From contig JAPLNI010000058.1 in assembly GCA_026692865.1 (NCBI GenBank), positions 434,938 through 498,937 of the forward strand: a DNA stretch of 64,000 bases. Direction: 5' to 3'. The DNA comes from Planctomycetota bacterium. GTDB taxonomy: Bacteria > Planctomycetota > Planctomycetia > Pirellulales > Pirellulaceae. The position numbers and the translations under genes are program-made. The notes beneath the pieces were generated by a model. The model was not told the DNA's origin. It made no database searches and was given only the letters and a program-made list of their open reading frames with translations. Shown here in pieces: positions 8,193-11,077 of this stretch (position 1 is its first letter; every line of letters starts with the position of its first letter).

Positions 8193-9158
8193 TTGTCGAA
8201 TACGTTAACTCAGCCACCATCTGTTGGGCTTGGACTTTGGAAAATCGCGAATGATCAAGCTGCTGATGCCGTTCAAGCGGCCATTGAGATTGGTTACAGA
8301 CATCTCGATTCTGCTAGCGATTACGGTAACGAAGCTTTTTCCGGCGAGGGGATCAAATCATCGCTAGAGAAAAAAATGGTAAGTCGAGATGAGCTTTGGG
8401 TTACAAGTAAACTTTGGAATACCAACCATCGATCGGAGCATGTAAGGGCTGCGTGCGAGAAGTCATTGAAAGATTTGAAAGTCGATTACTTGGACCTTTA
8501 CTTAATCCACTTTCCGATTTCGCTGAAATATGTCGATCCTCAGTGCAGGTATCCCGCGGGTTGGTTTTACGATCCAGATGCACCAACCCCAAAGATGGAA
8601 ATTGACTCGGTTCCCATTCGCGAAACCTGGGAAGCCATGCAAGAACTAGTCACATCGGGTCTTGTTCGACAGATTGGAGTCAGCAATTTCAATGTCTCGC
8701 TTATCCGCGACGTCTTGTCCTATGCGACAATTCGGCCATCAGTACTGCAGGTCGAATCGCATCCTTACTTAGTGCAACCGAAACTTTTGCGATACTGTCA
8801 GCAGGAATCAATCCACATGACGGCGTTTTCACCTCTGGGAGCTCCATCGTACGTATCGATCGGTATGGCAACGGAAGCTGATTCCGTTCTAACGGAGCCA
8901 ACCGTGCTTGCGGTTGCGGATAAGATAGGGTGCACGCCTGCTCAAGCGGTGCTCGCATGGGGGATTCAACGAGGAACGTCAGTCATCCCAAAGACCACGC
9001 GAGTAGCCCGACTCAGAGAAAATCTTGAGTCAAAGGATATTTTGCTGTCGATTGAACAGATGCAAGAAATGCAATCGCTTGACCAAAATCGCCGATTCAA
9101 TGATCCGGGAGTCTTTTGTGAACAAGCTTTCGGAAGTTTTTATCCGATCTACGAGTAA
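8193..9158 (+). CDS. Aldo/keto reductase
   Basis: 321 aa. The catalytic tetrad of the AKR superfamily is visible: D39 and Y44 in HLDSASDYGNE, K73 in TSKLWN, and H106 in YLIHFPI. The NADP-binding IPKTT and the C-terminal MQSLDQNRRFNDPG are present. The middle loop is like that of aldose/xylose reductases, so it probably reduces sugars or other aldehydes with NAD(P)H in the cytoplasm; the substrate is not known. The start is TTG at 8193, after AGGACC. The gene is monocistronic and is followed by an independent small RNA unit. Confidence 0.88.
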   Translation: MSNTLTQPPSVGLGLWKIANDQAADAVQAAIEIGYRHLDSASDYGNEAFSGEGIKSSLEKKMVSRDELWVTSKLWNTNHRSEHVRAACEKSLKDLKVDYLDLYLIHFPISLKYVDPQCRYPAGWFYDPDAPTPKMEIDSVPIRETWEAMQELVTSGLVRQIGVSNFNVSLIRDVLSYATIRPSVLQVESHPYLVQPKLLRYCQQESIHMTAFSPLGAPSYVSIGMATEADSVLTEPTVLAVADKIGCTPAQAVLAWGIQRGTSVIPKTTRVARLRENLESKDILLSIEQMQEMQSLDQNRRFNDPGVFCEQAFGSFYPIYE

Positions 9159-9218
9159 GAGATTCCAAGGCAAAAGAGACAATCAATATCTTTTTTACGA
9201 AAACTATCTATCTCGAAG

Positions 9219-9246
9219 TTGACGACGCCTCATAACCCAGTATAGT
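9219..9246 (+). promoter_or_regulatory. Sigma-70-like promoter of the small RNA
   Basis: The -35 box TTGACG (9219-9224) and the -10 box TATAGT (9241-9246) are separated by 16 bp. Both are within one or two bases of consensus. The predicted transcription start, about seven bases past the -10 box, is at 9253, right at the base of the first hairpin of the RNA. Confidence 0.7.
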
Positions 9247-9252
9247 TTGAAC

Positions 9253-9361
9253 AAACCAGTCGAGCTTGCTCGATTGGGCCTTCTCATCGATCACCTGCCC
9301 CGGTTGAGAGAAGGTTACTCCCATGCTAATCACCTGCCCCGGTTAGCGTGGGTTTTTTTTT
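9253..9361 (+). ncRNA. Candidate ~109-nt small RNA with twin identical loops
   Basis: An intergenic transcript unit with three hairpins and no open frame. Hairpin 1 (9256-9277) is a 9-bp stem capped by a CUUG tetraloop. Hairpin 2 (9279-9314) is a 13-bp stem with one bulged A and the loop ACCUGCCCC. Hairpin 3 (9320-9352) is a 12-bp stem with the same loop ACCUGCCCC, followed by nine T. The repeated segment ATCACCTGCCCCGGTT is identical at 9290-9305 and 9329-9344, while the stems around it differ in sequence but both pair, partly through G-U pairs. Variable stems with conserved loops point to selection on the loops. C-rich loops that pair with purine-rich ribosome sites are known from other bacterial sRNAs (for example the Rhodobacter CcsR group). 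I know no named family matching this one. Confidence 0.75.
9320..9361 (+). terminator. Intrinsic terminator of the small RNA
   Basis: A 12-bp stem (9320-9331 with 9341-9352, two G-U pairs) with a 9-nt loop is followed directly by nine T (9353-9361). It ends the small RNA and is 400 bp before the next coding start, so it is not an attenuator of that gene. Confidence 0.88.
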
Positions 9362-9754
9362 GCCGTTCAAGATTTTTTACACTTTGCAAATATTGCCTGC
9401 CGGCATGGCAACCGCTTGTTTTTAGCGTGTGAAATGGATGACTTAATTTAAGATCCGATACATCCTCAAGATAAGAAAACCTAACGGTTACACGGAGTGA
9501 ACGGAGCGGTTCTTGTTGTCACATAAAGGAATGTTTTTGCCGGTTTTTTCTATTCAAATGCGTTATCTAGTTCGGATGGATTGATACAGGACGACCCGTT
9601 GGGAAGGTACTTCTGCGACAAATTTTTAGTGGCTGACGCACGCGGTTTTATTTACGTTATCGATAGGTCTGGAACACTAACAAGTGGGGGAATCTATGGT
9701 AGGTTGATAAATCTGTTGCACGAATTGTTCAGGACTGCTTAGGAGAGTTAGGAA
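9362..9754. other. 393-bp gap after the small RNA
   Basis: No coding frame is convincing. A small GC palindrome (TTGCC...TGCCGGCA...GGCAA) lies around 9393-9411. The last 20 bases hold the ribosome site AGGAGA of the gene starting at 9755. No other signal is recognised. Confidence 0.4.
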
Positions 9755-11077
9755 ATGAGATGTCCACGTCGATGGAATGGATTTGTTTATTTTCATGTAG
9801 TCCTTGTGATTGCTTTTGGGGGCATTGAAAGCGGACACTTTATATTCTCTGGCATCGCGAGGACTTTGGCTGCCGAGTCTTCCCCAGTCCAACAAACAGC
9901 AACGCCTATAAGCGTAAAAATTAAACTGCTTTCTGGTGCAACGGTCGAAGGCGATCTTCAGAGTGTCAATACAAGCACCGTAACCATAAGGACTGGCGTT
10001 GATAACAAGTCGGTCGTAACTGAGTTTCCTGTTGCCGAGACCGCGGTCATCGAGTTGAAGGGGGTGTCACCAAGCGATGCAACATCTTCCGGCGATATTC
10101 TGAAGCTAACGGATGGAACTTCACTCCAATGCCGCAGCATATTAGGTAAAGATAACTCTTGGTCAGTTGAAAGCGAAAGCAATGTTTCGCTCAGCATAAC
10201 TCCGTCGACAATGGCGAGTCTGCAATTTCGAAACTTGAATAAAGCGGTACGTGAGGCTGCTAGCCAAAACGCTGGTGCACCAGTTTTGACTGATGAAATG
10301 CTGATCATCAGGCCGGGTGACCAAATCGATCGGATACCGGGAGTGATTCTCGGGCTCGACGAAAGTTCTGTAAGCTTTTCCTTTGACGGTCAGACAATTC
10401 CGGCCCCGCGAACCAAGCTTGCTGGACTTGTGTGGGCTCAGCCTGAGGAATCTCCATACAAACCAACGATTCGGATTAGAACTCTCGATGGAAGCAAATG
10501 GGAAGCAACCGAGCTTAAGTTCGTAGATTCCGGTGAAAAAGGACCAGTGTTTCAGTGGACCTTACGCAGCGGTATCGAATGTGTATGCGATCCCAAGCAA
10601 GTCGCGAGCATCGATTTTTCTAACGCCATTGTGAGATGGTTTGCTGCGATTGCTGTGATCGAATCCAAAGCGTTCGACAATCCGTTTTTGTCGGTTTCGG
10701 TTCGTGGTAGATCGGTCTTGCTGGCTCCTCATTTCGCGAGTAATTCCAAGGGTCGGGATATCGCAGATGAGCCTTCAACAAAAAATCTCGTGTTTCCGGT
10801 TGATGGCGAAATCGTTGCTCGTGTACCAGATGGTACTACGCGATTTCGTACCCGAATCGTTCGCCCGGAAGATGCGAGAATTCAAGATAAAATCCTATGT
10901 GAGATTTGGTCTAACGAAGACCTTTTATGGTCGAGTGCGGATCCAAAAGTAGATGCGCCATGGGTTGTCGATATTGCAGTGACGCCAGAAAAGCGACTTC
11001 GATTGGTGGTCCGATCCGAATCGAAGATTTCTGCCGGTAGCATGGTGACTTGGCTGCAGCCCAGGTTTTCTCCGTAG
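9755..11077 (+). CDS. Secreted protein with C-terminal NPCBM-like domain
   Basis: 440 aa. The first about 45 residues look like a signal peptide with a hydrophobic stretch and end near LAAES. The middle has repeated beta-rich segments of the kind KLLSGATVEGDLQSV and LRTLDGSKW. The C-terminal about 110 residues read FRTRIVRPEDA..., LLWSS..., WVVDIAV..., LRLVVRSES..., SMVTWLQPRF, which resembles the NPCBM/NEW2 putative carbohydrate-binding module common in planctomycete surface proteins. No catalytic motif is evident. The start ATG follows AGGAGA with 8-nt spacing. Carbohydrate binding is inferred from fold similarity only. Confidence 0.7.
   Translation: MRCPRRWNGFVYFHVVLVIAFGGIESGHFIFSGIARTLAAESSPVQQTATPISVKIKLLSGATVEGDLQSVNTSTVTIRTGVDNKSVVTEFPVAETAVIELKGVSPSDATSSGDILKLTDGTSLQCRSILGKDNSWSVESESNVSLSITPSTMASLQFRNLNKAVREAASQNAGAPVLTDEMLIIRPGDQIDRIPGVILGLDESSVSFSFDGQTIPAPRTKLAGLVWAQPEESPYKPTIRIRTLDGSKWEATELKFVDSGEKGPVFQWTLRSGIECVCDPKQVASIDFSNAIVRWFAAIAVIESKAFDNPFLSVSVRGRSVLLAPHFASNSKGRDIADEPSTKNLVFPVDGEIVARVPDGTTRFRTRIVRPEDARIQDKILCEIWSNEDLLWSSADPKVDAPWVVDIAVTPEKRLRLVVRSESKISAGSMVTWLQPRFSP

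Follow-up and report, generated by a model that had tools for sequence, protein, structure and literature searches.

What is encoded in the short space at positions 9253–9361 of the window (i.e. the whole stretch of 64,000 nt of planctomycete DNA analysed here)? A sequence-only reading had proposed a small RNA (sRNA) gene with its own promoter, a CUUG-capped hairpin, two hairpins with the same loop and a U9 tract. All of these elements are present where they had been placed, so the locus raises the questions of whether they form a gene, how far the gene is distributed and how its product might act.

The probable gene at 9253–9361 and its closest relatives

On the plus strand, a −35 element TTGACG (9219–9224) and a −10 element TATAGT (9241–9246, within CCAGTATAGTT) are separated by a 16-nt spacer and precede a putative sRNA of about 109 nt (9253–9361), whose start is placed by the promoter spacing and the onset of perfect conservation. 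The predicted structure consists of three hairpins, two of which carry the loop ACCUGCCCC: a 5′ hairpin of 9 bp with a CUUG loop (9256–9277), a second hairpin with a bulged stem and the loop at 9293–9301 (9278–9315), and a third with a 12-bp terminator stem and the loop at 9332–9340 (9320–9352). The last two are supported by both fold and covariation, and the U9 tract (9353–9361) would complete an intrinsic terminator. The 16-nt identity proposed between 9290–9305 and 9329–9344 is exact. The fold energy is −49 kcal/mol versus −27.9 ± 3.1 kcal/mol for 200 shuffles (z = −6.7), none of which equalled it. Allowing at most one mismatch, CACCTGCCCCGG occurs twice in the window, both times inside the sRNA gene (0.11 expected), a count reached in one of 100 shuffles.

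The promoter-like match alone is not above chance (1 found and 1.3 expected in the 901 bases scanned), so that conservation must carry the case for a gene. A simple terminator scan did not list the sRNA terminator, presumably because its loop has 9 nt and the scan is limited to 8. We therefore rely on comparison with a same-genus genome (G001), in which both promoter hexamers are the same while the spacer between them has changed. The sRNA is identical there over 109/109 nt, whereas the neighbouring aldo/keto reductase gene is identical at 793 of 974 aligned columns (81%) and the flanks at 54–72% (69/96 columns upstream and 182/334 columns over the 300 nt downstream). Because of this contrast, 9253–9361 looks like a real gene, and the proposal that it is free-standing gains support. 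Its transcription would start from a housekeeping-type promoter of its own and stop at its own terminator.

The window's own genome (G000; 5.55 Mb, 72 contigs) contains three copies of the sRNA in unrelated places, the other two being at C28:120213–120297 (minus strand) and at C60:1726–1794 (locus L010, 1714–1797). Each has two ACCUGCCCC loops 39–41 nt apart, the C28 copy has a third CUGCCCC loop in its 5′ hairpin, and the three differ in stem sequences. Orthologs of the window and C28 copies lie beside the same genes in G001, where the C28 copy is identical at 113 of 114 positions (flanks 77/103 and 132/230). The C60 copy has no match in G001, a genome that is 87% complete; it lies near a possible integrase fragment (L010, 2097–2516; PF00589, 22.1 bits versus a Pfam cut-off of 27.1). 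A blastn search of 60 genomes gave no match in the 58 besides G000 and G001, and three loci taken around weak blastn matches (L011–L013) all lack CCTGCCCC.

Conservation and distribution of the family

An alignment of the four distinct copies of the genus (A2) has 94.7% of its cells paired and two-sided changes at 8 of 24 pairs, and its covariation score (0.465) was reached in none of 500 shuffles. A covariance model built from it (R1) matched 36 of the 241 genomes examined in the window's taxonomic family (E up to 0.1). On inspection, matches that keep the loop were retained and plain terminators were dropped. The rejected matches (L029, L033, L039–L043, L045–L047 and L050) have no terminator hairpin with UGCCCC in its loop; L047 contains CACCTGCCCC and has no terminator. 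Three others (L044, L048 and L049) were left out of the family set. An exact-pattern scan of the genome contigs returned 24 stretches: two are from the same-genus genome, one (L063) was rejected as it sits in a tandem repeat, and the remaining 21 gave no R1 match at E up to 0.05.

A second model (R2), built from an alignment of 16 loci (A4), matched 68 of the 241 genomes of the taxonomic family (E up to 0.01), i.e. its coverage there is partial, and 121 of 396 genomes of the order (E up to 0.001); both counts are mostly by model score alone. It also yielded 38 further loci of the order, all 38 with CUGCCCC in the terminator loop (L085, L094, L100 and L107 were judged from the alignment only). 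Together with the 16 training loci and L038 they form an alignment of 55 loci with 54 distinct rows (A7). Its terminator helix is 98.3% paired even though it has been rewritten, and its 5′ helix is 92.0% paired. The covariation score is 0.865 versus 0.233 for shuffles and at most 0.137 for slid partners. Two-sided changes occur at all 24 pairs; since 29 of 500 shuffles give the same count, the score and the paired cells are better measures. Stems that differ yet pair had been proposed from the window alone, and the compensatory changes in A2 and A7 bear this out.

The nearly constant part of the RNA is the apical 8–9-nt loop of the terminator hairpin, which holds CUGCCCC. In A7, this loop has U and CCCC in 55/55 loci, CUGCCCC in 51/55 and CCUGCCCC in 38/55. 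UGCCCC is found again upstream of the terminator in 27 of the 55 loci (as CUGCCCC in 25), mostly as a hairpin loop and in L211 within a stem; in loci without it, the 5′ hairpin is an ordinary one. Members of the family have one to three such loops per RNA. Loop conservation in G001 and across the order agrees with the idea that the loops are under selection. It should be noted that A7 is fitted to the structure and that its rows depend partly on the loop itself: the first 17 were picked because they have it, and the other 38 were found with a model that includes it in the score. A sample of the phylum serves as a control for this.

This sample comprises 392 genomes, i.e. 12 members of the order (9 of them from the window's own family) and 380 from outside it. 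A terminator-with-loop pattern based on the most frequent closing pairs (GGTNCCTGCCCCRCC, followed 6–16 bases later by TTTT) occurs in 3 of the 392 genomes, all of them order members from outside the window's family, and in none of the 380 outside the order; it is also absent from the 9 own-family genomes, whose own copies use other closing pairs. Backward controls of the pattern gave no match in the 392 genomes. R2 matched 8 of the 12 order members, counting G000 itself, and, outside the order, 4 of the 380 genomes. Eight new loci of the order, from seven genomes, were inspected and have the loop in the terminator in every case. The four matches outside the order lack it and were rejected; one of them (L219) has CCTGCCCC in a neighbouring stem. 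By pattern and R2 together, 9 of the 12 order members (own genome included) and none of the 380 genomes outside carry the sRNA. Judged from this sequence comparison, the window gene is a member of an order-wide family of sRNA-like genes in the Planctomycetota, and genome kinship suggests that the order is Pirellulales. Two model matches lie 0.2 to 2 kb apart on one contig in each of three genomes (G521:C539, G298:C58 and G056:C188; model score only), which suggests that further families of the order have tandem duplicates of the sRNA.

Known C-rich-loop RNAs and the search for targets

Neither the window nor 40 loci that contain family members or paralogs gave a match above the cut-off of any Rfam 15 family, in line with the sequence-only reading, which recognised no named family. 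The best weak matches of the window are at E 1.1 and 2.8, and its best sRNA likeness is anti-hemB (RF02837; 13.5 bits, E 1.1, cut-off 49.5), i.e. Burkholderia RNA 7, whose model also ends in a hairpin and a U tract but which belongs to a different phylum. L097, the only other member scanned at a relaxed threshold, resembles sX13 (25 bits, cut-off 50), anti-hemB (24.5 bits) and, weakly, Atu_C7, all below threshold. These likenesses of L097 suggest convergence on the same design or, conceivably, a very remote kinship. The sX13 model (RF02232) has no match in 9150–9450 of the window at E up to 10 and none at gathering level in the 40 loci. The 6C RNA, which we take to be Rfam RF01066, is absent from the Rfam matches of the window, the 40 loci and L097, and LhrC has no match in the Rfam scans.

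Three known systems share the general design. The sX13 RNA is described as 115 nt long and Hfq-independent, with three stable hairpins and apical C-rich loops that act on mRNAs with G-rich motifs near their starts (PMC3771888). Its loops contain 4C or 5C instead of CUGCCCC, and G-rich motifs near starts, which sX13-repressed mRNAs carry, were not found to be enriched in the small planctomycete samples examined. The 6C family consists of C-rich-loop RNAs. Its actinobacterial member B11 is reported to repress an mRNA with a G tract in the 5′ UTR through two C-rich loops, either of which is enough and at least one of which is needed (PMC10470900); the planctomycete RNA likewise can have two C-rich loops, but with CUGCCCC in place of a plain C run. 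In Listeria, LhrC1–5 are five nearly identical copies with a known target and a UCCC core at three sites, one in a hairpin loop, one in a single-stranded part and one in the loop of the terminator (PMC4132741), whereas here the loop is CUGCCCC and the three copies have different stems. Like C-rich-loop sRNAs that act in trans, the planctomycete RNA has what appears to be a free-standing gene with a promoter and an intrinsic terminator, conserved C-rich apical loops and variable stems. A search of open-licence literature gave no planctomycete sRNA of this kind among the matches listed. We rate it as a new sRNA family of known design.

The loop had been proposed to mask purine-rich ribosome sites. 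To us, the loop and closing stem of the window copy (GAUCACCU) resemble the 3′ tail of 16S rRNA, of which no gene was found in the G000 assembly. Mimicry of the anti-Shine–Dalgarno sequence was nevertheless rejected, as the loop reads, for example, GGUUCCUGCCCC or GGUCCCUGCCCC in other members and only CUGCCCC is nearly constant. Upstream of ATG, raw counts of GGGGCAGG are higher forward than in the backward control in all eight genomes counted (G195, G000, G001, G196, G007, G199, G029 and G022; e.g. 86 versus 15 in G195). Almost all inspected sites near ATG lie inside open frames, so we put this excess down to coding composition. A GGGGCAGG-N2-17-ATG site was taken to look like a true start if its ORF had 100 aa or more and the open frame extended for fewer than 20 codons ahead of the ATG; this holds for 0 of the 54 sites inspected in G195 (of 86) and for 1 of 14 non-self sites in G000. 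The start-site candidate L201 was rejected, as the same-genus genome has GGAGCAGG and does not keep the complement; its protein has a signal-like N-terminus and proline-rich repeats, with no Pfam match. At L208/L209 (G000:C43 and G001:C25), a proline-rich and probably secreted protein has a leader with strong conservation upstream of the start, but the loop complement within it is not kept.

Words before starts were also counted in two 400-kb samples (G000:C58:1–400000 and G195:C1:3800001–4200000), with starts predicted by a simple longest-ORF rule. Within 40 nt before predicted starts, GGGGCA occurs at 0 of 269 and 1 of 268. Of the remaining sub-words, GGCAGG alone is somewhat raised, with 5 occurrences versus a mean of 1.9 in one of four counting windows. 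GGGG is somewhat rarer than dinucleotide expectation (8 versus 13.5 and 16 versus 23.3). Avoidance of an abundant RNA with C-rich loops would be compatible with this shortage, which is weak and has other explanations. In G195, GGAG and GGAGG are above words of the same composition before starts but only slightly commoner than on the other strand. Since complementary sites are not enriched at starts and the lone candidate is not kept in the same-genus genome, these data do not support masking of ribosome sites. These tests could miss sites of four G, which suffice for sX13.

Counts of the 9-mer complement GGGGCAGGT do not clearly exceed those of the backward control, with 20 sites in G000 (6 self and 14 non-self; control 15) and 29 in G001 (4 self and 25 non-self; control 20). 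Only one of the 39 non-self sites inspected is common to both genomes (L234/L229; blastn E below 1e-8). It falls in a leader (L234, 1458–1566, on G000:C31; L229 on G001:C155) that is identical at 108 of 109 nt and presumably lies, going by names given from translations, between a PQQ-like beta-propeller gene and an acidic ORF before ileS. The leader holds GGGGCAGGUG, a 10-nt loop complement with 10 Watson–Crick pairs to CACCUGCCCC. The complement is predicted to be internally paired, an equally good duplex is found in 49 of 2451 DNA pieces (the sRNA loci themselves included), and the leader has no Rfam match at gathering level. We treat it as a lead only, since by a rough estimate one shared site of 14 is no more than chance. 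A repeat of the GGCAGGAAAATGGGGGCAGGAA type, with variants, is dispersed in G195 (L148, L159, L166 and L179) and contains a stretch exactly complementary to CCUGCCCC; it could serve as a sponge if it is transcribed.

Mode of action, alternatives and genomic context

Most likely, 9253–9361 encodes a small regulatory RNA of a non-Rfam family found across one planctomycete order. The C-rich loop, which hardly changes while the stems are rewritten, is probably the part that grips its partners. On balance, we consider it probable that this order-wide sRNA, with its own promoter and terminator, acts in trans through pairing of the CUGCCCC loop with mRNAs; we favour this by analogy because a near-invariant loop, interchangeable stems and loop repeats make up the layout of C-rich-loop antisense RNAs. 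The sRNA would be transcribed from a housekeeping-type promoter and end at its own terminator, and its CUGCCCC loop would start pairing, in a loop-first (kissing) manner, with GGGGCAG-like G-rich stretches. The targets would be a limited set of mRNAs bound in trans, and the repeated loops may give avidity or redundancy, as in sX13, B11/6C and LhrC.

A fairly unlikely alternative, and the best of the others, is an RNA that binds and titrates a protein in the manner of CsrB/RsmZ, with copy and loop number setting the degree of sequestration. A nearly invariant loop on free stems, one to three loops per RNA and the three copies in G000 would suit such a role, as would the lack of enrichment of loop complements in the sampled mRNAs. 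CsrA recognises a GGA motif, and the loops have none, so the protein would not be CsrA; to our knowledge, no bacterial protein has specificity for a CUGCCCC loop, which we count against titration. Moreover, C-rich loops are established antisense devices (PMC3771888 and PMC4132741). Likewise unlikely is a reading in which CUGCCCC does not serve to pair with ribosome sites but is what an RNA-binding protein specific to the order, or another fixed RNA partner, recognises. The family, with its one to three loops per RNA and one to several genes in a genome, would then set dose by titration, a system confined to this order.

The remaining alternatives concern the genomic context. The window sRNA is co-directional with the aldo/keto reductase gene and begins about 95 nt downstream of its stop codon, as would be expected if the hairpins were simply the 3′ UTR or terminator of the reductase mRNA and there were no separate RNA. 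We regard this as improbable, because the promoter hexamers are kept in the ortholog while their spacer drifts and because other members are divergent to, or beside, unrelated genes. The neighbouring genes vary among the 49 loci compared, so the sRNA is not tied to one operon. In 11 of them (L023, L026–L028, L078, L080, L081, L083–L085 and L087), it shares a divergent upstream gene, a sigma-54-type response regulator by Pfam (run on L023 only), and there it is not the 3′ UTR of a preceding gene. Five of the 11 (L080, L083–L085 and L087) also share a downstream gene, the carbamoyl-phosphate synthase large chain gene carB (Pfam, L080 only). Between the response-regulator gene and the sRNA, a sigma-54 promoter pattern matches in one of the 11 loci and in none of the other ten; the readable promoters are of the housekeeping kind (TTGACA-N16-TAGAAT in L026–L028).

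Transcription of the window sRNA points towards a 440-aa ORF at 9755, of which it could be the 5′ leader or attenuator. This is very improbable, given that the U9 terminator would end the RNA almost 400 nt before the ORF, conservation is low over the first 300 nt of this gap (182/334 columns) and the downstream genes vary between members. A dispersed repeat or mobile element is the least probable explanation of all: there are three copies, and that on C60 lies near the integrase fragment (22.1 bits, below the cut-off of 27.1) and lacks a match in the same-genus genome (87% complete), but the stems of the copies differ by compensatory changes and two of the three have same-genus orthologs beside the same genes.

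Very few planctomycete sRNAs have been catalogued; a 2022 review tabulates eight distinct annotated sRNAs in all for the PVC group (PMC9029176). The family described here allows one to ask how an sRNA finds its targets where obvious targets at ribosome sites did not appear, and an order-wide family with a nearly unchanging loop provides a ready model, with 55 aligned loci, for Rfam and for cultured members of the order.
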